Source: Eurosta solidaginis
Lineage: Eukaryota > Arthropoda > Insecta > Diptera > Tephritidae
DNA length: 64,000 bases
Reading direction: 5' to 3'
NCBI RefSeq assembly: GCF_040869045.1
Contig: NC_090321.1
Location: 128,517,689-128,581,688 of the forward strand
The position numbers and the translations under genes were made by a program. The notes under the pieces were generated by a model, which was given only the letters and a program-made list of their open reading frames with translations, was not told the origin of the DNA and made no database searches. This document shows, in pieces, positions 11,900-64,000 of the stretch. The number at the start of each line of letters is the position of its first letter. Positions within the stretch are counted from its first letter, which is position 1.

Positions 11900-12251
11900 T
11901 AAAAAAAATAAATGTAATGCGCGATAACCTCCGAAGAGATCTAAGGCCGAGCTTCTCTTCCAATTTGCGTCGTGCTCCTCTTGATTTTTCCCTACAAATT
12001 GGCCGGACGGGACCTACATGTTTTATGCCGACTCCGAACGGCATCTGCAAGGCAGATGAGTTTTCACTGAGAGCTTTTCATGGCAGAAATACAATCGGAG
12101 TGCTTGCCAGACGCTGCCGAGGGGCGACCCCGCTTAGAAAAATGTTCTTCTAATTGAAAAATCTTATTTCTAAAATTTTGATGTTGCTTTGCCCGGGAGT
12201 TGAACCCAGGGCATACGGTGTGATAGGCGGAGCACGCTACCATCACACCAC
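11900..12251 (-). mobile_element. SINE copy A (tRNA-derived), inserted in BEL-2 integrase
   Basis: Read on the minus strand: a tRNA-like head (12251-12186), a body of about 270 bases, and an A/T-rich tail (TTACATTTATTTTTTTTATT, plus-strand positions 11900-11919). The uninterrupted BEL-1 integrase shows it lies between YSDN and the following TTTGTCGGAG. About eight bases of target appear lost or replaced and no clear target duplication is seen. SINE B (24713-25032) is the same family in the opposite orientation. Confidence 0.85.
12186..12251 (-). promoter_or_regulatory. tRNA-like head with internal pol III promoter (A and B boxes)
   Basis: On the minus strand TGGTAGCGTGCTC fits the A box and GGTTCAACTCC the B box, about 35 bases apart. 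The B box lies in a good T-arm (CTGGG TTCAACT CCCGG). The acceptor and anticodon stems are poor and no CCA-proximal pairing is clear, so it is a SINE promoter and not a working tRNA gene. Confidence 0.8.
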
Positions 12252-12944
12252 TTTGTCGGAGCGTCACGATCCTTACGATCAGAATTCAAGACCTTCATCT
12301 CACAAGCGCGAGAGAACGCTGACTCAAAGTACAGCCACCAGTCACTCACGTGGCATTTCATCCCTGCGGGCGCTCCCCATATGGGAGGGCTGTGGGAGGT
12401 TTGAGTGAAAAGCTTCAAAAGCCATTTCAAAAAGATAGCCTCACAACACAAATTCGCCTTCGAGGAATTCCATACCCTCTTGTGCCGCATCGAGGCATGC
12501 CTGAACTCGCGGTCGCTCAGCCCGGCGTCCAATGACCCGACGGACCTAGAGCCGCTCACCCCAGGACATTTCCTCACTGGCAGCCATCTAGTGGCTCCGC
12601 CAGAGCCGGATGCGAGTGAGAGCCCTGCCTCGATGATCAATCGGTGGCAGAAACTCAGAGCCCTCCATCATACTTTCTGCAAGCGATGGAAAACCGAATA
12701 TCTCACCGAGATCCAGAAACGATACAAGTGGAAACAGCCACAACCTAATCTAAAACCCGGAGACCTGGTTGTTATCAAAGAGGACAACCTCCAACCCAAC
12801 GAGTGGGGAATGGGGAGAGCCGACAACACACACCCAGGCTCTGATAACCGCGTGCGTGTTGTTGACGTTCATACGAACAAGGGACAAATAACTAGACCAA
12901 TTACGAAATTGGTACTCCTTCCGTCCCACGACAAGGAGGATTAA

Positions 12945-29912: not shown

Positions 29913-30159
29913 TTGTGCACGACAATGAATTACGATATTTGTATGAATTTTTCGAATTTGCAAAAAACTTTATCTATTAATTATAAACAAATAGAGTAAT
30001 ATTTGTTAACAAAAATAGGCATATGCACTGCGGCTGATCAATACGAATCGATTCATATAACTTTTATATGATTTTACGTGTGCTAAGTATGCGAAACAGC
30101 CTGTCAATTGATTGTATGGAAATTTTTTTAGCGTATTAATATATAGATTTTAAAAAGGA

Positions 30160-33100: not shown

Positions 33101-34350
33101 ATCAAATGTAAGGTGTTAATGATTATTTTAAAAGGGAGTGGGCCTTATTTCTATAGGTGGACGCCTTTTCGAGATATCGCCATAAGGTGGACCAGGGGTG
33201 ACTCTAGAATTTGTTTGTACGATATGGGGTATCAAATGTAAGGCGTTAATGAGTATTTTAAAAGGGAGTGGGCCTTAGTTCTCTAGGTGGACGCCTTTTC
33301 GAGATATAGCCCTAAAGGTGGACCAGGGGTGACTCTAGAATTTGTTTGTACGATATGGGTATCAAGTGAGAGTTGTTAATGATTATTTTAAAAGAGCGTG
33401 GGCCCTAGTTCTATAGGTGGACGCCTTTTCTAGATATCCCCATAAGGTGGACCAGGGGTGACTCTAGAAATTGTTTGTACGATATGGGTATCAAATGTAA
33501 GGCGTTAATGAGTATTTTAAAAGGGAGTGGGCCTTAGTTCTCTAGGTGGACGCCTTTTCGAGATATAGCCCTAAAGGTGGACCAGGGGTGACTCTAGAAT
33601 TTGTTTATACGATATGGGTATCAAATGAGAGTTGTTAATGAGTATTTTAAAAGAGCGTGGGCCCTAGTTCTATAGGTGGACGCCTTTTCGAGATATCGCC
33701 ATAAGGTGGACCAGGGGTGACTCTAAAATTTATTTGTACGATATGGGTATCAAATGTAAGGTGTTAGTGATTATTTTAAAAGGGAGTGGGCCTTATTTCT
33801 ATAGGTGGACGCCTTTTCGAGATATCGCCATAAGGTGGACCGGGGGTGACTCTAGAATTTGTTTGTACGATATGGGTATCAAGTGAGAGTTGTTAATGAT
33901 TATTTTAAAAGAGCGTGGGCCCTAGTTCTATAGGTGGACGCCTTTTCTAGATATCCCCATAAGGTGGACCAGGGGTGACTCTAGAAATTGTTTGTACGAT
34001 ATGGGTATCAAATGTAAGGCGTTAATGAGTATTTTAAAAGGGAGTGGGCCTTAGTTCTCTAGGTGGACGCCTTTTCGAGTAATCGTTAAAAAGGTGGACC
34101 AGGGTTCACTCTAGAATGCGTTTGTACAATATGGGTATCAAACGAAAGGTGTTAATAAGTATTTTAAAAGGGCGTGGGCCTTAGTTCTATAGGTGGACAC
34201 CTTTTCGAGAAATCGCCATAAAGGTGGACCAGGGGTTACTCTAGAATGTGATTGTACGATATGGGCATCAAATTAAAGGTATTAATGATGGTTTTAAAAG
34301 GGAGTGGCCCTTAGTTTTATATGTGAAGTCGTTTTCGAGATATCGACCAA
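30160..34350. repeat. ~130-bp satellite array, about 30 units
   Basis: Unit of 129-131 bases: GACTCTAGAATTTGTTTGTA, then CGATATGGGTATCAAATG, TTAATGAGTATTTTAAAAG, GGTGGACGCCTTTTCGAGAT and AAAGGTGGACCAGGGGT. Variant types alternate (ATGAGAGTTG against ATGTAAGGCG). The array is interrupted at 32015-32274 by an end module (ATCATCTGTCGGATACAGCA) that recurs at 34371-34625. Confidence 0.93.
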
Positions 34351-34625
34351 AATGGTGACCAGGGTGACCCAAAACATCATCTGTCGGATACAGCAAATTT
34401 ATTTATATATGTAATACCACGAACAGTATTTCTGCCAAGATTCCAAGGGCTTTTGATTTCGCCCTGCAGAACTTTTTCATTGTCTTTTACTTAATATGGT
34501 AGGTGTCACACCCATTTTACAAAGTTATTTTCTAAAGTTATATTTTGCGTCAATAACCCAATCGAATTACCATGTTTCATCCCTTTTTCGTATTTGGTAT
34601 AAAATTATGGAATTTTTTTAATTTT

Positions 34626-44515: not shown

Positions 44516-45091
44516 ACCTTCAACAGAAGATCAACAACGATACGGCAATGAAAGAAGAAATCAGTGAATTTCTACGAAAATCGCATCTGATTCCTCGGGC
44601 AAAATTTTCTGCGGGAATGTCTAAAACCGGGGTAAAAATTGTAATATTCAAAGGTGATATCGATTCAAATTGTTGGAACCGATGGCGAGTTAAATACACC
44701 CACATCTTTCAACAAATAAAAACTTGGAGAACACCAAAAAATAAGGAACCAGGCATTCCGATCACTACATCAAATTTCGAGGATAATAATGAGACGGAAC
44801 CTTACATCCGAGACAAAGGTAGAGGCGGCATAAATAAACTTATTTACCAATAGTAAAAACAATAGAGGAAATATCTGAAGACCAAATAACACAACTTGAA
44901 ATGAACAATATAACCATTGAGAACTTGGCCAAACTGCAAGGTGGCATACAAAAAATTAGCAATACGGGTATAGAATTAAGTAATTTAAATATAAAAAAAG
45001 GACGTGTGGCACTCGGGGACTGCCGCGGTAAAGCTATTGCATATATCAACTTATGCAATTATAATATTTATGCAACATTTTGTTTTCTTTG
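44516..45091 (+). pseudogene. BEL-3 Gag-like continuation
   Basis: Frames 44516-44853 (QQKINNDTAMKEEISEFLRK, WNRWRVKYTHIFQQIK) and 44901-45092 (NITIENLAKLQGGIQKISN) are polar, helical and follow the transposon remnant. They may be the rest of the BEL-3 Gag. No motif confirms it. The element ends without pol where the simple repeat begins. Confidence 0.35.
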
Positions 45092-45204
45092 ATATTAATT
45101 CAAGTTTTGTCTTTGATATCAATTCAAGTTAACCTTTTTAAGCGTGGTGACCGATAAGAAAACAAATTTTTTACTTTTATTGAATAAATTAGAAGTTCAT
45201 ATTT

Positions 45205-48200
45205 AACTTTCACTTTAACTTTATTTTTAACTTTAACTATCACTTTAACTATAACATTCACTTTAACTTTAACTGTAACTTTAACTTTAACATTCACTTT
45301 AACTTTAACTTTAACTTTAAATTTAACTTTAACTTTAACTTTAACTTTATGTTAAACTTTAACTATCACTTTAACTATAACATTCACTTTAACTTTAACT
45401 TTAACATTCACTTTAACTTTAACTTTAACTTTAAATTTAACTTTGACTTTAACTTTAACTTCAACTTTAACTTTAACTTTAACTTCAACTTTAACTTTAA
45501 CCTTAACTTTAACTTTAACTTTAACTTTAACTTTAACTTTAACTTTAACTTTAACTTCAACTTTAACTTTAACCTTAACTTTAACTTTAACCTTAACTTT
45601 AACTTTAACTGTAACTTTAACTTTAACATTCACTTTAACTTTAACTTTAACTTTAACTTTAAATTTAACTTTAACTTTAATTTATTTTTAACTTTAACTA
45701 TCACTTTAACTATAACATTCACTTTAACTTTAACTGTAACTTTAACTTTAACATTCACTTTAACTTTAACTTTAACTTTAAATTTAACTTTAACTTTAAC
45801 TTTAACTTTAACTTTAACTTCAACTTTAACTTTAACTTCAACTTTAACTTTAACCTTAACTTTAACTTCAACTTTAACTTTAACCTTAACTTTAACTTTA
45901 ACCTTAACTTTAACTTTAACTTTAACTTTAACTTTAACTTTAACTTTAAATTTAACTTTAACTTTAACTTTAACTTTAACTTTAACTTCAACTTTAACTT
46001 TAACCTTAACTTTAACTTTAACTTTAACTTTAACTTTAACTTAAACTTAAACTTTAACTTTAACTTTAACTTTAACTTTAACTATAACTTTAACTTTAAC
46101 TTTAATTTTAACTTTAACTTTAACCTTAACTTTAACTTTAACTTTAACCTTAACTTTATCTTTAACTTTAACTTTAACTTTAACTTTAACTTTAACTTTA
46201 ACTTTAACTTTAACTTTAACTTTAACTTTAACTTTAACTTTAACTTTAACTTTAACTTTAACTTTAACTTTAACTTTAACTTTAACCTTAACCTTAACTT
46301 TAACTTTAACTTTAACTTTAAACTTAACTTTATTTTTAACTTTAAATTTAACTTTAACTTTAACTTTAACTTTAATTTTAACTCTAACTTTAACTTTAAC
46401 TTTAACTTTAACTTCAACTTTAACTTTAACCTTAACTTTAACTTAAACTTTAACTTTAACTTTAACTTTAACTTTAACTTTAACTTTAACTTTAACTTTA
46501 ACTTTAACTTTAACTTCAACTTTAAATTTAACTTTAACTTTAACTTTAACTTTAACCTTAACTTTAACTTTAACTTTAACTTTAACTTTAACTTTAACTT
46601 TAACTTTAACTTTAATTTTAACTTTAATTTTAACTTTAACTTTAACTTTAACTTTAACTTCAACTTTAACCTTAACTTTAACTTTAACTTTAACTTTAAC
46701 TTTAACTTTAACCTTAACTTTAACTTTAACTTTAACCTTAACTTCAACTTTAACTTTAACGTTAAAGTTAACTTTAACTTTAACTTTAACTTTAACTTTA
46801 ACTTTAACCTTAACTTTAACTTTAACCTTAACTTTAACTTTAACTTTATCTTTAACTTTAACTTTAACTTTAACTTTAACTTTAACTTTAACTTTAACTT
46901 TAAATTTAAATTTAACTTTAACTTTAACTTTAACTTTAACCTTAACTTTAACTTTAACTTTAACTTTAAGCTTAACCTTAACTTTAACTTTAACTTTAAA
47001 TCTAACTTCAACTTTAACTTTAACTTCAACTTTAACTTTAACCTTAATTTTAACTTTAACTTTAACTTTAACCTTAACTTTAACTTTAACTTTAACTTTA
47101 ACCTTAACTTTAACTTTAACTTTAACTTTAACTTTAACTTTAACTTTAACTTTAACTTTAACTTTAACTTTAACTTTAACTTTAACTTTAATTTTAACTT
47201 TAACTTCAACTTTAACTTTAACTTTAACTTAAAGTTAAACTTAAACTTTAACTTTAACTTTAACTTTAACTATAACTTTAACTTTAACTTTACCCTTAAC
47301 TTTAACTTTAACTTTAACTTTAACTTTAACCTTAACTTTATCTTTAACTTTAACTTTAACTTTAACTTTAACTTTAACTTTAACTTTAACTTTAACCTTA
47401 ACCTTAACTTTAACTTTAACTTTAACTTTAACTTTAACTTTAACTTTAACTTTAACTTTAACTTTAACTTTAACTTTAACCTTAACTTTATCTTTAACTT
47501 TAACTTTAAATTTAACTTTAACTCTAACTCTAACTTTAACTTTAACTTTAACTTTAACTTTAACTTTAACTTTAACTTCAACTTTAACTTTAACCTTAAC
47601 TTTAACTTTAACTTTAACTTTAACTTTAACTTTAACTTTAACTTTAACTTTAACTTTAACTTTAACTTTAACTTTAACTTTAACTTTAACTTTAACTTAA
47701 ACTTTAACTTTAACTTTAACTTTAACTTTAACTTTAACTTTAACTTTAACTTTAACTTCAACTTTAAATTTAATTTTAACTTTAACTTTAACTTTAACCT
47801 TAACTTTAACTTTAGCTTTAACTTTAACTTTAACTTTAACTTTAACCTTAACTTTAACTTTAACTTTAACTTTAACTTTAACTTTAACTTTAACTTAAAC
47901 TTTAACATTAACTTTAACTTTAATTTTAACTTTAACTTTAAATTTAATTTTAACTTTAACTTTAACTTTAACTTTAACTTCAACTTTAACTTTAACTTTA
48001 ACTTTAACCTTAACTTTAACTTTAACTTTAACTTTAACTTTAACTTTAACTTCAACTTTAACTTTAACCTTAACTTTAACTTCAACTTTAACTTTAACTT
48101 CAACTTTAACTTTAACCTTAACTTTAACTTTAACTTTAACTTTAACTTTAACTTTAACTTCAACTTTAACTTTAACCTTAACTTTAACTTCAACTTTAAC

Positions 48201-50784
48201 TTTAACTTCAACTTTAACCTTAACTTTAACTTTAACCATAACTTTAACTTTAACTTTAACTTTAAATTTAACTTTAACTTTAACTTTAACTTTAACTTTA
48301 ACTTTAACTTTAACTTTAACTTTAACTTTAACTTTAACTTTAACTTTAACTTTAACTTTAACTTTAACTTCAACTTTAACTTTAACTTTAACTTCGACTT
48401 TAACTTCAACTTTAACTTTAACCTTAACTTTATCTTTAACTTTAACTTTAAATTTAACTTTAATTTTAACTTTACCTTTAACTTTAACTTTAACTTTAAC
48501 TTTAACTTTAACTCTAACTTTAACTTTAACTTTAACTTTAACTTCAACTTTAACTTTAACCTTAACTTAAACTTTAACTTTAACTTTAACTATAACTTTA
48601 ACTTTAACTTTACCCTTAACTTTAACTTTAACTTTAACTTTAACTTTAACCTTAACTTTATCTTTAACTTTAACTTTAACTTTAACTTTAACTTTAACTT
48701 TAACTTTAACTTTAACCTTAACCTTAACTTTAACTTTAACTTTAACTTTAACTTTAACTTTAACTTTAACTTTAACTTTAACTTTAACTTTAACTTTAAC
48801 TTTAACTTTAACCTTAACTTTATCTTTAACTTTAACTTTAAATTTAACTTTAACTCTAACTCTAACTTTAACTTTAACTTTAACTTTAACTTTAACTTTA
48901 ACTTTAACTTCAACTTTAACTTTAACCTTAACTTTAACTTTAACTTTAACTTTAACTTTAACTTTAACTTTAACTTTAACTTTAACTTTAACTTTAACTT
49001 TAACTTTAACTTTAACTTTAACTTTAACTTTAACTTTAACTTTAACTTTAACTTTAACTTTAACTTTAACTTTAACTTTAACTTTAACTTTAACTTTAAC
49101 TTTAACTTTAACTTTAACTTTAACTTCAACTTTAAATTTAATTTTAACTTTAACTTTAACTTTAACCTTAACTTTAACTTTAGCTTTAACTTTAACTTTA
49201 ACTTTAACTTTAACCTTAACTTTAACTTTAACTTTAACTTTAACTTTAACTTTAACTTAAACTTTAACTTTAACTTTAACTTTAATTTTAACTTTAACTT
49301 TAAATTTAATTTTAACTTTAACTTTAACTTTAACTTTAACTTCAACTTTAACTTTAACTTTAACTTTAACCTTAACTTTAACTTTAACTTTAACTTTAAC
49401 TTTAACTTCAACTTTAACTTTAACCTTAACTTTAACTTCAACTTTAACTTTAACTTCAACTTTAACTTTAACCTTAACTTTAACTTTAACTTTAACTTTA
49501 ACTTTAACTTCAACTTTAACTTTAACCTTAACTTTAACTTCAACTTTAACTTTAACTTCAACTTTAACCTTAACTTTAACTTTAACCATAACTTTAACTT
49601 TAACTTTAACTTTAAATTTAACTTTAACTTTAACTTTAACTTTAACTTTAACTTTAACTTTAACTTTAACTTTAACTTTAACTTTAACTTTAACTTTAAC
49701 TTTAACTTTAACTTCAACTTTAACTTTAACTTTAACTTCGACTTTAACTTCAACTTTAACTTTAACCTTAACTTTATCTTTAACTTTAACTTTAAATTTA
49801 ACTTTAATTTTAACTTTACCTTTAACTTTAACTTTAACTTTAACTTTAACTTTAACTTTAACTCTAACTTTAACTTTAACTTTAACTTTAACTTCAACTT
49901 TAACTTTAACCTTAACTTTAACTTTAACTTTAACTTTAACTTTAACTTTAACTTTAACTTTAACTTTAACTTCAACTTTAAATTTAATTTTAACTTTAAC
50001 TTTAACTTTAACTTTAACTTTAACCTTAACTTTAACTTTAACTTTAGCTTTAACTTTAACTTTAACTTTAACTTTAACTTTAACTTTAACTTTAACCTTA
50101 ACTTTAACTTTAACTTTAACTTTAACTTTAACTTTAACTTAAACTTAAACTTTAACTTTAACTTTAATTTTAACTTTAACTTTAACTTTAACTTTAAATT
50201 TAATTTTAACTTTAACTTTAACTTTAACTTTAACTTTAACTTCAACTTTAACTTTAACTTTAACTTTAACCTTAACTTTAACTTTAACTTTAACTTTAAC
50301 TTTAACTTCAACTTTAACTTTAACCGTAACTTTAACTTCAACTTTAACTTTAACTTCAACTTTAACTTTAACCTTAACCTTAACTTTAACCATATCTTTA
50401 ACTTTAACTTTAACTTTAAATTTAACTTTAACTTTAACTTTAACTTTAACTTTAACTTTAACTTTAACTTTAACTTTAACTTCAACTTTAACTTTAACTT
50501 TAACTTCAACTTTAACTTTAACTTTAACCTTAACTTTAACTTTAACTTTAACTTTAACTTTAACTTTAACTTTAACTTTAACTTTAACTTTAACTTTAAC
50601 TTTAACTTTAACTTTAACTTTAACTTTAACTTAAACTTAAACTTTAACTTTAACTTTAACTTTAACTTTAACTTTAACTATAACATTAACTTTAAATTTA
50701 AGTTTAACTTTAACTTTAACCTTAACTTTAACTTTAACTTTAACCTTAACTTTATCTTTAACTTTATCTTTAACTTTAACTTTA
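45205..50784. repeat. (CTTTAA)n hexamer array, 5.6 kb
   Basis: Nearly uninterrupted CTTTAA on the plus strand (TTAAAG on the minus) with recurring variants CTTCAA, CCTTAA, ATTTAA, ATCTTT. The left 500 bases are more diverged (CACTTTAACTATAACATTCA recurs at about 45240, 45367 and 45700). The plus strand has nearly no G and the minus strand nearly no C. Open frames across it (LKLK, LTLT, FNFN, VKVK) are artefacts of a stop-free hexamer. A ~1.33-kb higher-order repeat is visible from 47240. Confidence 0.97.
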
Positions 50785-51407
50785 CCCGCGGGGGTATCGG
50801 TCCCCTACCGGGCGCCTCCTCAGGTGGTGGATAGAGGAACGCTTCCCACAAGACGGGAGGTACTGAGTGAATTAAGTACTCAGGGCGAACCAAAACGAGC
50901 AATCCGGTGGAAAAATGGGAATGTGTTGCTCTAAGGGCAACACACCCCAGAGTTCCGGTGGAAGAGCGATAGGATGCCGCCCTAAAATACCCCATCAAGC
51001 ATCCACAGGATCGAGACCAGTAAGATCCTGTTGACAAAAACTGGAAATATGATTATGAACTGATTGCTACGGGCTGGCGATGACGATAGGCTACTACCTT
51101 AATAAGCAAGGGTGACACCTTGCCGAAACGGCTGGTAGGTTAATATCGGCATCGTCTCCGTCTCGTTAAAACCTTGGCAGGTCTTCAAGTACGTTCGAAG
51201 CACGTCGCCATTAAGTTGGTGGTGCAGGCTCAGTTGAGACGACTCCTGACTAACGCTGTATTCTGGCTCTGAACACAGACTCCCATAAGGACCTGTGTCA
51301 ACCCACGCGTGGCCTCCCTGCTTCTGCAAAGATAACAACGGGAATTGAAGACGGCGACTGCACATCGTGCGGAGATAGCGGCTTGAAGCGGAGACCCAAT
51401 AGAACAA
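50785..51407 (+). promoter_or_regulatory. R1-A 5' UTR
   Basis: 623 bases, GC-rich at the start (CCCGCGGGGGTATCGGTCCC). Two local hairpins are clear: CTGAGT...ACTCAG (50863-50883) followed by GGCGAA, and GTGTTGC...GCAACAC (50920-50942). R1-clade elements carry an internal promoter in this region; none is identifiable here. The R1-B 5' UTR is almost the same and starts at the same base. Confidence 0.7.
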
Positions 51408-52865
51408 ATGAGCAACAAAATAAAAACAACAAAGGAAGATAAAAGTAGAGAAAGCGAGAAAGAAAGGGGCGATGAAGCGGTGTTCAAGAAGAGCACCAAA
51501 GTGCTGAGATCGCCGGTTTTAACAACCCCCGCTAAAGCGACCTTGTCGGTAATGCCCACACAAGGCACCGAATCGGCGGAAAAGACAAAGGCAGCGAAAG
51601 CACAGCTGCGCAATAACCCCAGCCAGTCAACACCTGCTACTGCAAGGGAAAAAGCGTCGGTCAGCTCACCCAATGTCGTTGCACAGCGCGCTGTTGGGAA
51701 GGAGAAACGTGCGACTCCGCCAAGAGGCTCACTCTCATACACAAGCCTCGAAGGGAAGAGCCAAGACGAACTGCTGGAGTACGCGGTATCAGTGCTGCGC
51801 GAGATGCAGGAAACCGCTCTCAAGCAGAAGACCGTGTCCAAGGACATAAAAACCGGTGTGGCTCTTCTCGAGGAAGCGTTAAGCTGCATGGGATCGTTAA
51901 GGGCCCAAAAGGTAGATGAGAGCAGAGAATCGGGCCGAAAATGCAAGAGGGCACGAACGAGCTCAGATTCCCACTCGGAGGACTTGGAAGCCAAAAAGAA
52001 ACGAGATGAAAGAATAAATACGCTTTCACAAGGTGAGTCTGGGTCCAATGTAGCGCGCCGGAGGCTGAAACAGCGGGCCCAGCCAGCCAAGCAGGCAACC
52101 CCCGTCCAAGCTCCTAAAGCTCAAAAACGGGCGAGAAAGAGGAGACAAGCAGCAACTTTTGTGGTAAAACCTGTGGAAGGCAAAAGCTATGCCCAGGTAC
52201 TAGGGGCCATACGCGGCCAGCTCCGCCCTAATGACACAGGTACGGTGGTACGGTCAGTACGAAAAACCAAATCTGGTAACGTACTGATTGAAACGGCGCG
52301 CTGCAGTGACCAGACGGCCTTCAGAGCAGCTATAGGTAGTGCAGTAGGAGAGGTCGGTGAAGCACAACAGCTCTCCAAGCGGATGAAGTTGGAAGTACTT
52401 GGCATGGACTGTCTCACAACTGAAACAGAAATCCAAGACGCAATAAGGAGGGAGGTCGGAAAAGAAGAAATCACTAGACCTCTCCGTGTCTCTGTGTTCG
52501 CAGCAAACCAAAGAGAACAAAAAATGGCGGTCGTCGAAGTGGACGAGAATATTGGCAACGCCCTACTCAAAAAAGGTAAAATTCCTATCGGATGGATACA
52601 GTGCCGAATCAGACAGCGAGCAGAAGTACAACGCTGCTTTAGGTGTCTCGGCTACGGACACCGGAAGGCAGAATGCAAGGGTCCAGACAGGAGTAACGCC
52701 TGCTGGAAGTGTGGGCAAAGCAGCCACAAAGCTTCGGCCTGTACCGCAGCTCCAAAATGTTACCTGTGTAATACACAGAAGCTCGATCATGTCCCTGGAT
52801 CTGGAGCATGCAGCATTTTCAGAGCGGCACTCGCTGTTGCAAAGGCCAAAGTCTCAATTCAATAG
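51408..52865 (+). CDS. R1-A ORF1, Gag-like nucleic-acid-binding protein
   Basis: 485 codons, intact. The first 250 residues are Lys/Arg/Ser-rich and probably disordered. About residues 250-390 form the conserved ORF1 middle domain (SYAQVLGAIRGQLRPNDTGT onward). Three CCHC knuckles close it: CFRCLGYGHRKAEC, CWKCGQSSHKASAC and CYLCNTQKLDHVPGSGAC (the last non-standard in spacing). ORF1 proteins of this clade coat element RNA and, in telomere-targeting relatives, help to direct it to chromosome ends. It overlaps the start of ORF2 by 58 bases. Confidence 0.92.
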   Translation: MSNKIKTTKEDKSRESEKERGDEAVFKKSTKVLRSPVLTTPAKATLSVMPTQGTESAEKTKAAKAQLRNNPSQSTPATAREKASVSSPNVVAQRAVGKEKRATPPRGSLSYTSLEGKSQDELLEYAVSVLREMQETALKQKTVSKDIKTGVALLEEALSCMGSLRAQKVDESRESGRKCKRARTSSDSHSEDLEAKKKRDERINTLSQGESGSNVARRRLKQRAQPAKQATPVQAPKAQKRARKRRQAATFVVKPVEGKSYAQVLGAIRGQLRPNDTGTVVRSVRKTKSGNVLIETARCSDQTAFRAAIGSAVGEVGEAQQLSKRMKLEVLGMDCLTTETEIQDAIRREVGKEEITRPLRVSVFAANQREQKMAVVEVDENIGNALLKKGKIPIGWIQCRIRQRAEVQRCFRCLGYGHRKAECKGPDRSNACWKCGQSSHKASACTAAPKCYLCNTQKLDHVPGSGACSIFRAALAVAKAKVSIQ

Positions 52866-55805
52866 TGATTAGTTTTATCCAAGGAAACCTAAACCGGAGC
52901 AGACTTGCTGATGAGCTACTACAACAGTTGGTCTTAGACCATAAAGCTAACATCGTTATCATCAGCGAACCCTATAGAGCCCGAAATGATTGGCATATAG
53001 AAAACACCGGCACCGCCGCAATCTGGATGACAGATGCAAACGCCAATATTGTGAACCGTCCGCCTAACTACGAATAATACCACAATAGTAAGCTGCTACT
53101 TGTCCCCGAATGATCCCATTCAAACGTTCAGGGAGAAGCTTGAACTTATTGAAGACGACCTGAGGGACTTAACTAGTAACCTGGTTGTGGCGGGAGATTT
53201 TAACGCAAGAGCCGTCGAATGGGGAATGCCGCAGACTAACACCCGTGGAAGGTTAGTCCTTGAGATGGCAGCCAGGCTCGGTTTGAACGTGCTTAACACT
53301 GGTACGACCCCTACATACCGACGGCCAGGCTTTGGATACTCGATCCCCGATGTAACACTAGTGTCAGAAAGCCTGCTGCTGACCGCTGCTGGATGGAGAG
53401 TCATAGAGGATCTGACTGGCAGCGATCACAACTACATCACTTTCCACCTAAACGACCCCGGTCAGAGGCAGATTCCGAACGGGCCACGCAGAACAAAAGC
53501 ATGGGACGCATCCAAGGTCGACTCTGCCACGTTCTCCGCATCAGTACTGGGGGATGCCCGACGGATAATCAACAACTTCAGTCCGACGGAAGAGACGGTT
53601 GAAAAGACAATGAGCTGTCTTCGCCACGCTTGCAACCTCTCTATGCCACGGAGGGGAGTGTGGAGGGGTAAAAAGCAGGTATACTGGTGGAATAGCGAAA
53701 TCGCGGAGCTGCGGAAAATATGCCACAGGATGCGAAGGCTAGCAACTCGCGCGCGCGGCAGGCCTGAGGCTCTAGAAAAGTCGGAAGCGTACAAAGGAGC
53801 GAATGAAGCTCTTAGTGCTGCCATTAAGCAAAGCAAGCTTAAGTGCTGGAAAGCGCTTTGCGAGGAAGTGGATCGAGATCCATGGGGGCAGGGATATAAG
53901 ATAGTAATGAAGAAGTTCCGTCCGCCAAACCAGCTGATGGACGAGAACCAAATAAAGAACATTGTGGATGGCCTGTTTCCCACCCAACTGCCTAGGGATG
54001 GCGGGTACGTTACCCATGAAGATCGCAACGTGGAACCATTCCAAGAAGAAGAGCTTAAAACTGCCGTGCGAACTATGAAACCTAGGAAAGCATCTGGGCC
54101 CGACGGAATACCCGCGGAGGCAATTAGACTAGCTGCAAACGACTGCCCAGAACTTATGTTGCACATGTACAACAAATGTCTCGAAGAAAGAATTTTCCCC
54201 ACCATATGGAAGACAGCACGACTGGTTCTCATTCCAAAAGGGAAAGGAGATCCCAACTCTCCATCATCCTACCGTCCCCTATGTATGTTGGACACAGCAG
54301 GGAAATTGATGGAGAGTCTCCTGAAGCAACGCCTCACCAGAGCGTTACAGGACGCCGGAGGACTGTCGCCCAGACAGCATGGTTTTCGGAGGGGGCACTC
54401 TACAATAGATGCCATAGCAGAAGTTATAGACGCAGTCAAGAAAGCCGAGACAGCGTGCCACAGAGCAAGACCTATAGTGTTGCTGGTCACGCTGGACGTC
54501 AAAAACGCTTTTAACTCAGCTAGGTGGGAGGACATGCTTGAGGCACTAGAAAGCACTTTCAAAGTACCGCAATATTTGTTAGAAATTTTAAGGGACTACC
54601 TAAGAGAGAGGTATCTAATATATGAAAGTACTCACGGTCAAAAAAAGGTAAAAATAACAGGTGGAGCAGCCCAGGGTTCGGTACTAGGTCCCGAACTCTG
54701 GAATATAACTTACGACAGTCTTCTTCGATTAGACATGCCAGAAAGCACCTTCCTCGTTGCATTTGCAGACGACGTGGCAGCTGTGATAACAGCACCAAGC
54801 TGCGAGCTGGCACAGCTAAAATTAAACCAGTTCATGCGTAATGTAAATAGGTGGATGGCTGAGCACGGTCTCCAGTTAGCAACAGCCAAAACGGAGATCG
54901 TCATCCTCACAAAGAGACGTATTCCCACTACCAGGAACATGATGGTTGGGGACCAGCCAATAGAAACACTCGCTTCAACGAAAAATCTGGGAGTGAGGTT
55001 AGACAGCAAACTCAACTTCTCGGATCACATACGAGGGACCTGCGAAAGAGCTGCGCGCATAATAGCGCAGTTGAGTAGATTAATGGCAAACACAGGTGGC
55101 CCAAAGCCATGCACAAGGAAGTTGCTTGCATCAGCCTCGGATTCTATATTCTTATATGGTGCAGAAATCTGGGCGGACGCAATGAAATACCGGAAGAACC
55201 GAGTCGCCCTCAACTCGGTCCAACGCAGAGGGGCGCTGCGAATATCTTCGGCTTACCGCACGGTATCAGCTGAAGCTGTCCTGGTCGTTGCGGGAACCAT
55301 ACCGATATATCTTCTCGTTGAGGAAAGAAAAACAATATATGACAACGGATCGCAAGCAAGTAGAGCTGCTGTTGCCATGCAGGCGCGAGAAGAATCGATC
55401 CGATGTTGGCAAGATCAGTGGAGCAACAGCATCGTAGGAAAGTGGACTAGGGAACTAATCCCTGAACTTGATCCATGGTTGAAGCGACCGCACGGAGAGG
55501 TAGACTTTTACCTGACCCAGTTTCTAACGGGACATGGTTACTTCCGCAAATACCTACACAGAATGGGTAAGGTTGATAGCCCGAGCTGCCTGTACTGTGG
55601 GGAAATAGACGATGTACGCCACACCTTCTTCGAATGCAGGCACTTCTCCCATCAGCGAAGGAGGGTAGAAGAGGTACTTGGCGACCTATCCCCGGGCAGT
55701 GTCATTAATAACATGACCTGTCGAAGAGACAGATGGGATACGGTCAGCACATATGTGAGGCATATACTTACCAGTAAACGAGAAGACGGATGCCTAGCCC
55801 ATTAG
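52808..55805 (+). pseudogene. R1-A ORF2: endonuclease-reverse transcriptase, single 20-bp deletion
   Basis: The start frame is 52808-53077, the rest 53100-55805; a 20-bp deletion at about 53059 relative to R1-B shifts the frame. APE-type endonuclease: IISEPYRARNDW, VVAGDFNARAVEW, TLVSES and GSDHNYITF. RT: VLIPKGKGDPNSPSSYRPL, LVTLDVKNAFNSARW, GAAQGSVLGPELWN and the active site FADDVAAV. The C-terminus has CLYCGEIDDVRHTFFEC, the CCHC of this clade. Apart from the deletion the 901-codon second part is open with all catalytic motifs, so a relative without the deletion may be active. Confidence 0.92.
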
Positions 55806-56046
55806 CGTGAGAGTAGCCATAGAGCTCACGTAGCGCGCACCCGTACCCGAAGTAATGCTAAACGCGGTCCCAGGTACGGGGATTTGCGCGGGCCGTGGGA
55901 GGTTAGGTTTTAGTGGGTAGGCCTTCATGGAAGAAGGGAGTCCTACACTCGGAGAGTCTCGCAGTGAGGCTTAAATATCCCGGTCAGTGCATAAAGCATT
56001 TCCTCCTTCCACGAAACACAAAAAAAAAAAAAAAAAAAAAATAAAA
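55806..56046 (+). other. R1-A 3' UTR and poly(A) tail
   Basis: About 215 bases, then about 23 A, ATAAAA and the CTTTAA array. The long tail directly joined to array units is what target-primed reverse transcription leaves; the bottom strand would have primed with an end like ...TTAAAG. Confidence 0.85.
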
Positions 56047-57121
56047 CTTTAACTTTAACTTTAACTTTAACCTTAACCTTAACTTTAACTTTAACCTTAA
56101 CTTTATCTTAAACTTTAACCTTAACTTTAACTTTAACCTTAACTTTAACTTTAACTTCAACTTTAACTTTAACTTTAACTTTAACTTTAACTTTAACTTT
56201 AACTTTAACTTTAACTTTAACTTCAACTTTAACTTTAACCTTAACTTTAACTTTAACCTTAACTTTAACTTTAACTTTAACTTCAACTTTAACTTTAACT
56301 TTAACTTTAACTTCAACTTTAACTTTAACCTTAACTTTAACTTTAACTTTAACTTTAACTTTAACTTCAACTTTAACTTTAACTTTAACTTTAACTTTAA
56401 CTTTAACTTTAACTTTAACTTTAACTTTAACTTTAACTTTAACTTTAACTTTAACTTCAAATTTAAATTTAACTTTAACTTTAACTTTAACTTTAACTTC
56501 AACTTTAACTTTAACCTTAACTTTAACTTTAACTTTTACTTTAACTTTAACTTTAACTTTAACCTTAACTTTAACTTTAACTTTAACTTTAACTTTAACT
56601 TTAACTTTAACTTTAACTTTAACTTTAACTTTAACTTTAACTTTAACTTTAACTTCAACTTTAACTTTAACTTCAACTTTAACTTTAACCTTAACTTTAA
56701 CTTTAACCTTAACTTTAACTTTAACTTTAACTTGAACTTTAACTTTAACTTTGACTTTAACTTTTACTTTAACTTTAACTTTAACTTTAACTTTAACTTT
56801 AACTTTAACTTCAACTTTAACTTTAACCTTAACTTTAACTTTAACTTTAACTTTAACTTTAACTTCAACTTTAACCTTAACTTTAACTTTAACTTTAACT
56901 TTAACCTTAGCTTTAACTTTAACTTTAAATTTAAATTTAAATTTAACTTTAACTTTAACTTTAACTTTAACTTTAACTATAACTTAACTTAACTTTAACT
57001 TTAACTTTCACTTTCACTTTAACTTTAACTTTATTTTTAACTTTATCTTTAACTTTAACATTCACTTTAACTTTAGTTTTAACTTTAACTTTAATTTTAA
57101 CTTTAACTTTAACTTTAACTA
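56047..57121. repeat. (CTTTAA)n array between the two R1 elements
   Basis: 1.07 kb of the same hexamer with the same variants and a more diverged right end (57000-57110: CTTTCACTTT, TTATTTTTAACTTTATC). It continues the left array, so R1-A is an insertion within one array. Confidence 0.96.
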
Positions 57122-57743
57122 CCCGCGGGGGTATCGGTCCCCTACCGGGCGCCTCCTCAGGTGGTGGATAGAGGAACGCTTCCCAAAAGACGGGAGGTAC
57201 TGAGTGAATTAAGTACTCAGGGCGAACCAAAACGAGCAATCCAGTGGAAAATGGGAATGTGTTGCTCTAAGGGCAACACATTCCAAAGTTCCGGTGGAAG
57301 GGCGATAGGATGCCGCCCTAAAATACCCCATCAAACATCCACAGGATCGAGACCAGTAAGATCCTGTTGACCAAAACTGGAAATATGATTATGAACTGAT
57401 TGCTACGGGCTGGCGATGACGATAGGCTACTACCTTAATAAGCAAGGGTGACACCTTGCCAAAACGGCTGGTAGGTTAATATCGGCATCGTCTCCGTCTC
57501 GTTAAAACCGTGGCAGGTCTTCAAGTACGTTCGAAGCACGTCGCCATTAAGTTGGTGGTGCAGGCTCAGTTGAGACGACTCCTGACTAACGCTGTATTCT
57601 GGCTCTGAACACAGACTCCCATAAGGACCTGTGTAAACCCACGTGTGGCCTCCCTGCTTCTGCAAAGATAACCAAGGGAATTGAAGACGGCGACTGCACA
57701 TCGTGCGGAGATAGCGGCTTGAAGCGGAGACCCAATAGAACAA

Positions 57744-59193
57744 ATGAGCAACAAAATAAAAACAACAAAGCAGGATAAAAGTAGAGAAAGCGAGAAAGAA
57801 AGTGGCGATGAAGCGGTGTTCAAGAAGAGCACTAAAGTGCTGAGATCGCCGGTTTTAACAACCCCCGTTAAAGCGACCTTGTCGGTAATGCCCTTACAAG
57901 GCACCGAATCGGCGGAAAAAACAAAGGCGGCGAAAGCACAGCTGCGCGACAACCCCAGCCAGTCAACACCTGCTACTGCAAGAGAAAAAGCGTCGGTCAG
58001 CTCACCCAGTGTCGTTGCGCAGCGCGCTGTTGTGAAGGAGAAACGTGCGACTCCGCCAAGAGGCTCACTCTCATACACAAGCCTCGAAGGGAAGAGCCAA
58101 GACGAACTGCTGGAGTACGCGGTATCAGTGCTGCGCGAGATGCAGGAAACCCCTCTCAAGCAGAAGGCCGTGTCCAAGGACATAAAAACCGGTATGGCTC
58201 TTCTCGAGGAAGCGTTAAGCTGCATGGGATCGTTAAGGGCCCAAACGGTAGATGAGAGCAGAGAATCGGGCCGAAAAAGCAAGAGGGCACGAACGAGCTC
58301 AGATTCCCACTCAGAGGACTTGGAAGCCAAAAAGAAACGAGGTGAAAGAACAAATACGCTTTCACAAGGTGAGTCTTGGTCCAATGTAGCACGCTGGAGG
58401 CTGAAACAGCGGGCTCAGCCAGCCAAGCAGGCAACCCCCGTCCAAGCTCAAAAATGAGCGAGAAAGAGGAGACAAGCAGCAACTTTTGTGGTAAAACCTG
58501 TGGAAGGCAAAAGCTATGCCCAGTTACTAGGGGCCATACGCGGCCAGCTCCGCCCTAATGATACAGGTACGGTGGTACGGTCAGTACGAAAAACCAAATC
58601 TGGTAACGTACTGATTGAAACGGCGCACTGCAGTGACCAGACGGCCTTCAGAGCAGCTATAGGTAGTGCAGTAGGAGAGGTCGGTGAACCACAACAGCTT
58701 TCCAAGCGGATGAAGTTGGAAGTACTTGGTATGGACAGTCTCACAACTGAAACAGAAATCCAAGACGCAATAAGGAGGGAGGTCGGAAAAGAAGAAATCA
58801 CTAGACCTCTCCGTGTCTCTGTGTTCGCAGCAAACCAAAGATAACAGAAAATGGCGGTCGTCGAAGTGGACGAGAATATTGGCAACGCCCTACTCAAAAA
58901 AGGTTAAATTCCTATCGGATGGATACAGTGCCGAATCAGACAGCGAGCAGAAGTACAACGCTGCTTTAGGTGTCTCGGCTACGGACACCGGAAGGCTGAA
59001 TGCAAGGGTCCAGACAGGAGTAACGCCTGCTTGAAGTGTGGGCAAAGCGGCCACAAAGCTTCGGCCTGTACCGCAGCTCCAAAATGTTACCTGTGTAATA
59101 CACAGAAGCTCGATCATGTCCCTGGATCTGGAGCATGCAGCATTTTCAGAGCGGCACTCGCTGTTGCAAAGGCCAAAGTCTCAATTCAATAGT
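57744..59193 (+). pseudogene. R1-B ORF1, several nonsense codons
   Basis: Open from 57744 to TGA at 58455-58457. In the continued R1-A alignment TAA appears at about 58841 and 58906. The knuckles are still readable past the stops; the second reads CLKCGQSGHKASAC, a better zinc knuckle than the CWKC of R1-A. Confidence 0.9.
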
Positions 59194-61232
59194 GATTAGT
59201 TTTATCCAAGGCAACCTAAACCGGAGCAGACTTGCTGATGAGCTACTACAACAGTTGGTCTTAGACCATAAAGCTAACTGCGTTATCATCAGCGAACCCT
59301 ATAGAGCCCGAAATGATTGGCATATAGACAACGCCGGCACCGCCGCAATCTGGATGACAGATGCAAACGCCAATATTGTGAACCGTGTTGCCGGACAAGG
59401 CTACGTCCGCCTAACTACGAATAATACCACAATAGTAAGCTGCTACTTGTCCCCGAATGATCCCATTCAAACGTTCAGGGTCAAGCTTGAACTTATTGAA
59501 GACGACCTGAGGGACTTAACTAGAGCAAGAGCCGTCGAATGGGGAATGCCGCAGACTAACACCCGTGGAAGGTTAGTCCTTGAGATGGCAGCCAGGATCG
59601 GTTTGAACGTGCTTAACACTGGTACGACCCCTACATACCGACGGCCAGGCTTTGGATACTCGATCCCCGATGTGACATTAGTGTCAGAAAGCCTGCTGAT
59701 GCCCGCTGCTGGATGGAGAGTCATAGAGGATCTGGCTGGCAGCGATCACAACTACATCATTTTCCACCTAAACGATCCCGTTCAGAGGCAGATTCCGAAC
59801 GGGCCACGCAGAACAATAGCATGAGACGCATCCAAGGTCGACTCTGCCACGTTCTCCGCATCAGTACTGGGGGATGCTCGACGGATAATCAACAACTCCA
59901 GTCCGACGGAAGAGGCGGTTGAAACGACAATGAGCTGTCTTTGCCACGCTTGCAACCTCTCTATGCCACGGAGGGGAGTGTGGAGGGGTAAAAAGCAGGG
60001 ATACTGGTGGAATAGCGAAATCGCGGAGCTGCGGAAACTATGCCACAGGATGCGAAGGCTAGCAACTCGCGCGCGCGGCAGGCCTGAGGCTCTAGAAAAG
60101 TCGGAAGCGTGCAAAGGAGCGAAGAAAGCTCTTAGTGCTGCCATTAAGCAAAGCAAGATTAAGTGCTGGAAAGCGCTTTGCGAGGAAGTGGATCGAGACC
60201 CCTTGGGGCAGGGATATAAGATAGTAATGAAGAAGTTCCGTCCGCCAAACCAGCTGATGGACGAGAACCAAATAAGGAACATTGTGGATGGCCTGTTTCC
60301 CACCCAACTGCCTAGGGAGGGCGGGTACGTTACCCATGAAGATCGCAACGTGGAACCATTCCAAGAAGAAGAGCTTAAAACTGCCGTGCGAACTATGAAA
60401 CCTAGGAAAGCATCTGGGGCCGACGGAATACCGGCGGAGGCAAGTAGACTAGCTACAAATAACTGCCCAGAACTTATGTTGCACATGTACAACAAATGTC
60501 TCGAAGAAAGAAGTTTCCCCACCATATGGAAGACAGCACGACTGGTTCTCATTCCAAAAGGGAAAGGAGATCCCAACTCTCCATCATCCTACCGTCCCCT
60601 ATGTATGTTGGACACAGCATGGAAATTGATGGAGAGTCTCCTGAAGCAACGCCTCACCAGAGCGTTACAGGACGCCGGAGGACTATCGCCCAGACAGCAT
60701 GGTTTTCGGAGGGGGAACTCCACAATCGATGCCATAGCAGAAGTTATAGACGCAGTCAAGAAAGCCGAGACAGCGTGCCACAGAGCAAGACCTATAGTGT
60801 TGCTGGTTACGCTGGACGTCAAAAACGCTTTTAACTCAGCTAGGTGGGAGGACATGCTTGAGGCACTAGAAAGCACTTTCAAAGTACCGCAATATTTGTT
60901 AGAAATTTTAAGGGACTACCTAAGAGAGATGTATCTAATATACGAAAGTACTCACGGTAAAAAAAAAGGTAAAAATAACAGGTGGAGCAGCCCAGGGTTC
61001 GGTACTAAGTCCCGATCTCTGGAATATAACTTACGACAGTCTTCTTCGATTAGACATGCCAGAAAGCACCTTCCTCGTTGCCTTTGCAGACGACGTGGCA
61101 GCTGTGATAACAGCACCAAGCTGCGAGCTGACACAGCTAAAATTAAACCAGGTCATGCGTAATGTAAATAGGTGGATGGCTGAGCACGGTCTCCAGTTAG
61201 CAACAGCCAAAACGGAGATCGTCATCCTCACT
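59135..61232 (+). pseudogene. R1-B ORF2, endonuclease motif deleted and RT truncated
   Basis: Start frame 59135-59824. It retains the 20 bases (GTTGCCGGACAAGGCTACGT) that R1-A lost. A 27-bp in-frame deletion at about 59525 removes the GDFN catalytic motif of the endonuclease. A TGA at 59822-59824, a one-base insertion in an A-run near 60960 (frameshift before the RT active site) and truncation at 61232 follow. FADDVAAV is still readable at 61085-61110. Confidence 0.9.
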
Positions 61233-62841
61233 GTTTGAGCGACTGTCGTAGTCGTCAACACCCAACCCTTTTATTTTAAGAGCTGAATTTATAAACGATT
61301 TTTTAATTAGTACACGCTTCCATATGTTTTATTGCATGTTTTATTGAATTAAACCTATTTGAACTTAAACGTATATTTATGAATTATTATACGTGGAAAT
61401 ATGTACTTCATTACATATTTTATACCTTTATATTATATTTGAGCTATTCATGAATAAATTAAAATACGTATAACCATTATACGTAACACTCATGTTAAAC
61501 TAGGATTAGCACTTATAGACTTGTAAATGAATGCTTGAACATATTTCGCCCCTCTGGCAACCCCAACTGATGTGTTGACAGGTGCCATATGTACATATAT
61601 ATATAATTTTTGTTTTGACATTTCTTTTATATTATAAGCTTTTATTTACTTTCACTTTTGTTGTCTGTAATGGAATCTTGCAAGTTAAATTTGATACACT
61701 TCCCGGTGTCCGATGGAGCTGAAATTTTGCACACATGTATAACTCCGATGACAATGCAATATTACTTTGTTAGAATTCGATAAATTAATCGATAACACAG
61801 TTATCGGTAAAGATTTGTATTTACTTTGGCATAACAGCCTAAGTCCCATACAAACACGCCGGTACCTATCCGTGGATTGTGATATTTGGACGTGGTGAAT
61901 CACGTATCACGCGTGGTGAATCTCATCGCTTGCGAAAAGCGGAGACACAACCCTCTGTTGTATTTCTGTGTATAACCAACATAGCTGAATGTTTAAGGCT
62001 GTTTAACCTTGTAATCTTTTCTGTAATTTATTTTGCTTTTGGAAAAATTACCTATTTGAAAAAAGCTGGCTGAAAAATATTGGCATAACAGCTTAAGTTA
62101 AATCAAGAATGGAAAATCTTTGGAAAATTTGAGCAGATGTGGCAATTTCGCGCGTCCGTTGAACGAAATATTGACAATCTGCTGATCATCGCTAAGAAAT
62201 TAGCGGCATTCCATCAACTAAGCAGCACTTTAGCAATACTACTGTTATTATTTGGCCGCTCAAACACACAAATATTAATTGTGCATTAAATCTAAAATAT
62301 ACAAATACACCATAATAATTTACACGGCCAAAGCCATAATAATTCACACGGGTCATCAATTCTTTCTCTGATTCAAAATCTGAACTACCAGCGCTACCGC
62401 CAACAGCTCAGTGTCATCACTGCCAGTAGCGCCAATAACACCAAACTCGTGCCTGACACGCAAAAGTCGTTTCACTTAATAGCGCAAGTAAAATGTACTA
62501 CGCACTCACTACTAAGAAGCGTCAAAAATTCGCTTGGAGTAATTTCGTCAATGAGCTACCATTGAGCTGGCACCGTATTGGCGCTGGCGCCATGCAATTT
62601 ACATCACTAAAATTGCGCGAATGCCCAGGCTCATGACTTCAATACTTATATTTACAATGCTTTAAACTTTAAATACACCTCTGAAGTTGCTGCGCATAAA
62701 ATGTGTACTAATAAATTCCAATACGCATTATACGCAGATGTAACTGATATATGTGTTTTTGTTTCACCCCCTATACTTATATTTAAAGCTTTTATAAGAA
62801 CAAGCTTCTATTACTTGTTAATAAAACGAACTAAAAAGTAA
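61233..62841. other. AT-rich region, no gene
   Basis: Starts TGTTTGAGCG right at the R1-B break; CGCTCAAACA, its exact inverse, is at 62258-62267. The 1.03 kb between could be a small inverted-end element, but no target duplication is seen and R1-B does not resume. GTGAATC(A/T)C recurs at 61896-61922. The rest holds nothing I can assign. Confidence 0.45.
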
Positions 62842-63453
62842 AAAATAAAATTAAAGAAAAAAAAACTTTTTTAAAAATAAGCTTTTATTATTTTGGTTAA
62901 TAAAATTAACTAAAAAGTAAACAATAAATTGACTCTAAAGAAATATAACACTTTATAAGTTCATTGTAAGCTTAAACGATAATTAGGCTTTTTCGTCTGC
63001 GACAAAAAAATTCTATATTGTACATAATTATATATTTTTAACATTAAAACTTTACACCTAAATTATTAAATCTTACAGTTTATATCACAGTCCTAATTGT
63101 TCTAATAAAAGCGTGTTACATTGCGATAGCAAGAAAAGGAGATCCTAAATGTTCTTAATTATACCATCAAAATTTAACACGTTTTTTATTAGAACAATTA
63201 GGACTGTGATATAAACTGTAAGATTTAATAATTTAGGTGTAAAGTTTTAATGTTAAAAATATATAATTATGTACAATATAGAATTTTTTTGTCGCAGACG
63301 AAAAAGCCTAATTATCGTTTAAGCTTACAATGAACTTATAAAGTGTTATATTTCTTTAGAGTCAATTTATTGTTTACTTTTTAGTTAATTTTATTAGCCA
63401 AAATAATAAAAGCTTATTTTTAAAAAAGTTTTTTTTTCTTTAATTTTATTTTA
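62842..63453. repeat. Near-perfect 277-bp inverted repeat
   Basis: Arms 62842-63118 and 63175-63453, almost identical, around a 56-base loop. Landmarks: TAATTAGGCTTTTTCGTCTG in the left arm and its inverse in the right. The outer ends are A/T runs. A degraded third copy of the outer part (AAGCTTCTATTACTTGTTAA) lies at 62793-62840. Confidence 0.95.
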
Positions 63454-64000
63454 TTATTCATTCGAAATTTTTCATCCCGTGTGTGACACAAAATTTGTAA
63501 AGTCTCTTTAAAAGATATATACTATATTAAATGAAATAGTAATTTTCGCTAAAGTTTAAACCCCTAGTTTCCTTTATAAAGTTATAAAGTGCTTTTCCTT
63601 TTCGGTTCGAGAAATATTCTCCGTTGTTTTTGTGTGTGCCGCAAGTATCTATCCTAAAATTTAGGAACGCACTCTGCTATCATCGAGGTCGTAGAAAACC
63701 GAATCCACGGAGCGTTAGATTTCCATCCATTCGCCACCATCAAAAAAGCTCAGCCACTAGCACAGCCATCATAGCATCACGACAGCACCGCCACAGCCAT
63801 ATCCATCAGCTACATCCCACTGTAGAAAAAGGAAGGTAAATTTTAGCCTGCCATCCCCCTAAACAGTGGTCCCTCGACGCCACTAAGGAAACCAGCGCAA
63901 TAAAAACGCAAGTACCTTCGCCCTTTTCGTAAACCGTGAGTATTAAATGAGATATAATACAACCCAATCACGGAAAAAATACACATAAACGAGAAAAATC
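63454..64000. other. End of window, no certain gene
   Basis: 63623-63900 is GC-richer. TGGTCCCTCGACGCCAC at 63868-63884 resembles the TGGTCC leader starts of the BEL elements, so an LTR element may begin here. AAG-GTAAAT at 63832 could be a splice donor. The ORF 63624-63839 (Ser/His/Arg-rich) has no known domain. Confidence 0.35.

Follow-up and report, generated by a model that had tools for sequence, protein, structure and literature searches.

A strongly target-specific retrotransposon family of Eurosta solidaginis, probably of the R1 clade, in (CTTTAA)n arrays

The element R1 inserts into the 28S gene, where it leaves a target site duplication of about 14 bp, and the R1 clade also includes Waldo and Mino, two microsatellite-specific families with AC-rich targets. 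The telomeric TRAS elements carry a poly(A) tail. Here we compare these non-long terminal repeat (non-LTR) retrotransposons to an element that is present in two copies, R1-A and R1-B, in a (CTTTAA)n array of the tephritid fly Eurosta solidaginis. The analysed stretch of 64,000 nucleotides (hereafter the window) belongs to a genome of 1.9 Gb and lies on contig C3, about 128.5 Mb into the 289 Mb contig; this mid-contig position rules out a telomeric location of the locus. We find that the element represents a strongly target-specific retrotransposon family that lives within another repeat, and we conclude that it is very probably a polyadenylated non-LTR retrotransposon of the TRAS/R1 type, with (CTTTAA)n/(TTAAAG)n as the sequence chosen by its endonuclease.

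How R1-clade endonucleases choose their targets has long been studied, and every new target amounts to a natural experiment on how a cut site is read. The targets of non-LTR retrotransposons include microsatellites, telomeric repeats and transposons, and the R1 clade is one of three groups that hold most of the target-specific families (excerpts of PMC4640811). The TRAS1 endonuclease nicks TTAGGTT^AGG, with GTTAG being essential, and a swap of the endonuclease domain turns the SART1 target into that of TRAS1; SART1 is specific for a short repeat, has a poly(A) tail and is targeted by its endonuclease (excerpts of PMC7265360). The orientation of TRAS insertions is opposite to that of SART insertions (excerpts of PMC10088271 and PMC7265360), and what the excerpts of PMC2868851 say about targets concerns the TRAS1 enzyme only.

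The family described here resembles TRAS1 of Bombyx mori in combining an APE-type endonuclease and a reverse transcriptase (RT) with a fixed insertion point in a short tandem repeat, and its putative nick, TTAAAGTT^AAAG, would contain the GTT^A core of TRAS1. It differs from TRAS in its target, a (CTTTAA)n array carried by an interspersed repeat instead of telomeric (TTAGG)n. Like SART1, it combines specificity for a short repeat with a poly(A) tail and, probably, endonuclease-driven targeting, whereas SART goes into TTAGG, in the orientation opposite to TRAS. With Waldo and Mino it shares the likely clade and a microsatellite target, which here is an A/T-rich hexamer borne by another repeat. 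The endonuclease type is also that of R1 (R1Bm endonuclease), and the duplication of 13 bp found here is close to the approximately 14 bp of R1, which differs in its target, the 28S gene. Furthermore, the niche inside a transposon-like repeat recalls the transposon-targeting category of non-LTR retrotransposons; the target is here a hexamer array within the repeat, and the excerpts of PMC4640811 name no such case. We found no description of an element targeting CTTTAA/TTAAAG in the openly licensed literature, which was searched only partly by the motif itself.

At the locus, Tandem Repeats Finder (TRF) reports arrays of period 6 at 45202-50784 and 56045-57120, with 91% matches in the first. 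The features, in window coordinates, are:

44990..45197, plus strand: dispersed-repeat left flank beside the array, resembling 12 of 13 other left flanks
45198..50784, plus strand: (CTTTAA)n array on the 5' target side of R1-A (TRF and sequence)
50785..56044, plus strand: R1-A, non-LTR retrotransposon, from the fixed 5' start CCCGCGGGGG to the poly(A) (sequence and genome copies)
51408..52865, plus strand: open reading frame 1 (ORF1) of R1-A, 485 amino acids, with two CX2CX4HX4C knuckles and a third Cys/His cluster (by eye)
53100..55805, plus strand: ORF2 of R1-A, in-frame remainder of 901 amino acids, with part of the endonuclease, RT and C-terminal region (Pfam and PDB profile)
56045..57121, plus strand: (CTTTAA)n array separating R1-A from R1-B (TRF and sequence)
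57122..61231, plus strand: 5' part of R1-B, which continues outside the window beyond an insert; 96% identical to R1-A, with the same start base
61232..64000, unstranded: first part of an insert of about 10.7 kb in R1-B, which passes the window end; begins TGTTTGAGCG, with a 5-bp R1-B overlap at both edges

As stated in a preliminary description of the locus, both elements have the same orientation and start at the same base, R1-A at 50785 and R1-B at 57122 (both with CCCGCGGGGGTATCGG), with array units directly in front. The array units that it had described directly after the poly(A) of R1-A are also present, at about 56045. An alignment of the two copies over 4,146 columns shows 95.9% identity, and the hexamer phases at their 5' junctions are 2 nt apart, with CTTTA preceding CCCG in R1-A vs CTA preceding CCCG in R1-B. 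The R1 sequence of R1-B stops at 61231 and resumes at base 7929 of a neighbouring stretch (L010), with five R1 bases repeated. Because this insert interrupts R1-B and the 3' end is found beyond the window, R1-B is not 3' truncated; directly after its poly(A) come some 0.4 kb of array, which lead into the right flank of the array. Thus, the array is present on both sides of both elements.

To analyse the family across the genome, we searched for the first 25 bases of R1-A and obtained 187 matches with up to 2 mismatches (control: 0). Our sample of 5' ends consists of 100 exact matches among the matches listed, on contigs C1-C5, and at least 200 bases upstream were examined for all 100. An array was scored if the last 30 bases before the element were at least 75% identical to CTTTAA in any phase or on either strand. 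We observed that the array abuts 85 of the 100 5' ends and that its orientation is the same in all 85, whereas 0 of 20,000 random 30-mers from outside the arrays of the window pass the test. This adjacency is thus not due to chance. The upstream flanks are distinct in 81 of the 85 cases, the other 4 being near-duplicates. Furthermore, the junctions have a preferred phase: 56 of the 85 follow CTTTA, 22 follow CTTT and 7 are in other phases, such that two of the six phases hold 74 of the 81 distinct flanks (P about 1e-27). A whole-genome count of the main junction (after CTTTA, phase 5), allowing up to 3 mismatches, gave 103 matches vs 0 for the control; they are spread over C1-C6 and several small contigs. 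As a negative control, we used the end of another repeat with 45,441 copies, for which only 21 array junctions of one kind (one phase and strand) were found. Runs of AC (five units), ACAY (four units) or TTAGG (three units) are absent from the 200 bases upstream of the 100 5' ends, and the 28S site of R1 is absent from the same flanks.

Some 5' ends that are not scored as abutting an array are nevertheless close to arrays or to other copies. Few array units separate L068 and L097 from the poly(A) of another copy, and L029 and L030 (C1:276223735 and 276228640) are arranged head to tail, directly after the poly(A) of the preceding copy and with no array units between. L025 and L026 start about 30 bases past the array, within its right flank, and L105 is preceded by array plus an internal fragment.

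The preliminary description had assumed a rare repeat, which does not hold, as the exact array 24-mer occurs 247,205 times in the genome (reversed control: 6 + 2). Of these, 160,990 are on the forward strand of the contigs and 86,215 on the reverse strand, a nearly twofold excess. From the 20.2 array bases per 24-mer in the window, we roughly estimate that arrays total about 5.0 Mb, or 0.26% of the genome. Chance insertion, which had been judged unlikely, is still rejected despite the abundance of the array, given that 85 of 100 copies abut a sequence of this share. A genome-wide tabulation of flanks had been set beforehand as the test of targeting: most of the 100 listed copies lie in arrays, and a majority in unrelated DNA was not seen.

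Target site duplications can be recognised here because about 9% of the array positions vary; variant hexamers thereby serve as bar codes, whereas a perfect repeat would hide the duplications. We sampled the 3' region of 26 in-array copies that were picked because a variant unit is located no more than about 20 bases from the 5' junction; both flanks are available for 23 copies, R1-A and R1-B included. An exact flank match of at least 10 bases was observed in 17 of these 23 copies. In 19 copies, a variant falls into the last 13 bases, and 13 of the 19 show an exact duplication of at least 10 bases, compared to 2 of 342 mispaired flank controls, with a length of 13 bp in ten copies, 12 bp in two and at least 25 bp in one, where the match is longer since the variant itself repeats. 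The duplications of L059, L077 and L088 are shorter than 14-16 bases, because a variant located 14-16 bases from the junction is not duplicated. As the variant-coded duplications are specific to the locus, we conclude that most copies are separate target-primed insertions and not copies of one segment. The claim that the family targets CTTTAA arrays is thus upheld by the 85 of 100 listed 5' ends, the preferred phase, the single orientation and the locus-specific duplications of about 13 bp.

At the 3' end, a 31-mer has 1,024 matches in the genome with up to 2 mismatches (control: 0), of which we analysed the first 30. A strict test for array after the tail was passed by 21 of the 30, and in four more (L156, L157, L164 and L175), array units are found at a distance of up to about 20 bases. 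The pairs L154/L155, L156/L157 and L159/L160 are not independent. Twelve 5'-truncated or rearranged copies were examined on both sides, and seven of these (L150, L152, L153, L154, L155, L156 and L161) have array on both sides, reaching the 5' side directly or within a few bases. This suggests that the target is chosen at the priming step.

These observations are consistent with the following mechanism. On the TTAAAG strand, the endonuclease would nick AGTT^AAAG to leave a 3' end in T, from which reverse transcription would start at the poly(A) tail. On the CTTTAA strand, a second cut would fall at CTTTA^A, some 13 nt downstream, and the cDNA would be joined to it. Each insertion would place an element, always in the same orientation, between array units and create a target site duplication of 13 bp, or 12 bp where the junction follows CTTT. 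The proposed nick and top-strand cut are based on the 3' junction, where poly(A) is followed by AAC..., and on the 13-bp duplication. The variant-coded arrays, with duplications that are unusually clear for a simple repeat, in this way allow putative cut positions to be read on both strands from sequence alone. As in TRAS and SART, the nick probably adjoins a T-A step of the repeat, and the 3' junction is probably primed on poly(A). By analogy with TRAS1 and SART1, the target choice is probably driven by the endonuclease. The element may also be active at present.

The array itself is an internal part of a dispersed repeat, since the array edges at many loci have non-array flanks in common, with one left flank and two right flanks. 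The left flank of the window was compared to 13 others chosen for visible likeness, and 12 of the 13 match it with 85-98% identity over 125-234 bases, the matches starting between 44978 and 44995. One right flank begins with ATGATCCGGGGTGGGCGTGAG and the other with ATGATAGAGATCCAATTTTATG; the former has 827 copies in the genome with up to 1 mismatch. Among 100 R1 3' ends on C1, 19 have a listed ATGATCCGGGGTGGGCGTGAG flank no more than 6 kb downstream on their own strand, and none has one in the opposite orientation, compared to a mean of 0.10 and a maximum of 3 in shifted controls. The element thus lives within another repeat family, which is probably mobile because it is dispersed. Pieces that resemble Penelope-like elements (GIY-YIG type by eye) were observed in or beside hexamer arrays in L001 (about 1210-2400) and L006 (about 920-1165), such that other elements may use the same niche.

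A tentative explanation for the origin of this target is that a TRAS-type telomere element switched from TTAGG to TTAAAG and kept the GTT^A core of the nick; its lineage would have lacked long arrays of TTAGG, and the present target would be supplied by another mobile repeat that bears the hexamer array and spreads it. Such a shift is attractive because the putative nick keeps GTT^A and the TTAGG runs in the genome are short. The exact (TTAGG)5 starts at 111 positions, and the 100 listed are short internal runs of at most 45 bases, in an assembly that may miss chromosome ends. As the target is similar to the telomeric repeat of TRAS and the core would be retained, the retargeting hypothesis is directly testable. 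The niche is nested insofar as the array belongs to a dispersed repeat, whereas a departure from TTAGG and a mobile carrier are presumed. If this is true, the element would parasitise what is itself a parasite, its niche would expand by itself and its landing sites would do no harm. The family also shows how a selective retrotransposon can be sustained in a large genome through a repeat that carries its landing pad.

In the ORF1 product of R1-A (51408-52865), two regular CX2CX4HX4C knuckles can be read by eye, along with a third, irregular motif, and a Pfam search matched no family in it. Pfam domains were found in ORF2 and nowhere else in R1-A, namely RVT_1 (E=4e-29), Exo_endo_phos_2 (E=5e-18) and also Exo_endo_phos; the endonuclease part of R1-A is broken relative to R1-B. 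ORF2 thus has an APE-type endonuclease and RT without RNase H, and the best 120 of 730 relatives share this Pfam set, likewise without RNase H. Among these 120, the nearest relative is 66% identical, the remaining 119 are 47-55% identical, and the few named ones include Bactrocera tryoni and Molorchus minor. When a profile of 18 ORF2 proteins was compared by sequence to PDB, the TRAS1 endonuclease ranked first with 97.1 bits and the R1Bm endonuclease reached 48.7 bits; L1 ORF2 chains scored 93-97 bits over endonuclease and RT together, which is not directly comparable with the TRAS1 score. Endonuclease similarity and architecture thus support the assignment to the TRAS/R1 type (R1 clade), in agreement with the label given earlier. 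Relatives of the element were also looked for in viral contigs, and none was confirmed.

The element ends in a poly(A) tail in R1-A. At the 5' end, the first 176 nt fold better than shuffled sequences (z -3.1). A ribozyme like that of hepatitis delta virus (HDV) at the fixed 5' start was considered and rejected: Rfam had no hit with E up to 1 in 50700-51400, and a crude descriptor of an HDV-like double pseudoknot matched 0 times in R1-A and R1-B and in 1 of 60 shuffles. Among the whole-genome junction matches, we observed a second variant of the 5' end, with GGGGGTACCGG replacing GGGGGTATCGG, at the identical array junction, which suggests subfamilies that share the target.

Several observations weigh against array targeting by this family. 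The tally of 5' ends rests on exact matches on C1-C5, that is, on 100 of 187, and 8 of the 100 have no array beside them (L034, L061, L062, L081, L092, L093, L104 and L106). Of these, L034 resembles R1-A over 97 bases only, L061 is probably rearranged since its 3' end is in an array, and L062 and L093 have no 3' end at the expected place. The other four have duplications in unrelated DNA, of 7-10 bp in L081, 14-15 bp in L092 and 11-14 bp in L104 and L106, with one mismatch in L106; the lengths are ranges because of the poly(A). These four are genuine off-target insertions, and the array specificity is therefore strong and not absolute. At the 3' side, 5 of the 30 ends are not at arrays (L149, L166, L172, L174 and L177), with L174 sitting in a (GTAAA)n repeat, and 5 of the 12 truncated copies lack array directly on the 5' side (L149, L162, L164, L174 and L176). 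The sample of 26 copies was preselected for variants near the 5' junction, and 5 of the 26 (L046, L098, L021, L037 and L070) have no 3' end at the expected place. Lastly, 6 of the 23 copies with both flanks fail the exact duplication test: the flanks of L101 and L086 are one base off, those of L032 two bases off, L074 and L016 can be matched by eye only when an additional base or a second run of A is permitted, and R1-B, which has unusual hexamer phases at both ends, shows no match.

The off-target copies, together with L174 in its (GTAAA)n microsatellite, could also indicate a loose specificity for any A/T-rich TT^A site, with copies surviving mainly in arrays that act as neutral sinks, and the off-target duplications start with A like the in-array ones. 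We regard this as improbable, because the phase preference of 74 of the 81 distinct flanks and the single orientation require a choice of sequence at cutting, and the far commoner repeat used as a control has almost no array junctions of the counted kind. A different explanation is that one or a few elements inserted into the array by chance and were then multiplied by duplication of array plus element or by unequal exchange. Segmental duplication had been raised in the preliminary description and does occur: L071 (C3:128596661), a 5' end 28 kb downstream of R1-A, has R1-A's own upstream array flank and is a local segmental duplication of the R1-A junction. The pairs L027/L020, L050/L048 and L056/L055 also have duplicated flanks, and L154/L155 and L159/L160 look duplicated. 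Near-duplicates are a minority of 4 among the 85 flanks, whereas 81 are distinct, the main junction is spread over C1-C6 and small contigs, and the variant-coded duplications differ between loci, which refutes duplication as the main cause and makes this explanation highly improbable. R1-B together with its flank is also not a copy of the R1-A segment, as had been considered, since the upstream flanks of the two do not match. The 5.6 kb array matches itself best at an offset of 1332 (96.5% over 600 bases), which is weakly informative on duplication because the match at an offset of 6 is barely lower (95.5%).

It could further be argued that the carrier repeat moves with the element inside, such that the copies are passengers of another transposon. 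The array indeed lies within a dispersed repeat with conserved flanks, one of which has 827 copies. However, the distance between the array edge and the element varies, with tens of bases in L069 and more than 1.4 kb in L012 and other copies, the duplications are found at the element's own ends in 17 of the 23 tested loci, and the four off-target copies lie in array-free DNA. We thus give very little credence to passenger copies and prefer insertion by the element's own endonuclease.

The insert of R1-B, which spans about 10.7 kb from 61232 to L010 7928, starts with TG and has a 5-bp repeat at its edges, so it is perhaps an LTR element. It contains an inverted repeat with arms at 62842-63110 and 63184-63452, of 269 bases each, which are 100% complementary and have 73 bases between them. 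Elsewhere in the window, a satellite array with a unit of about 130 bp is found at 30147-34368 (TRF periods 130, 259 and 389). Two diverged retroelement copies at 520-4822 (minus strand) and 7407-12944 (plus strand) have coding regions that, by eye, we take to be BEL/Pao-like.

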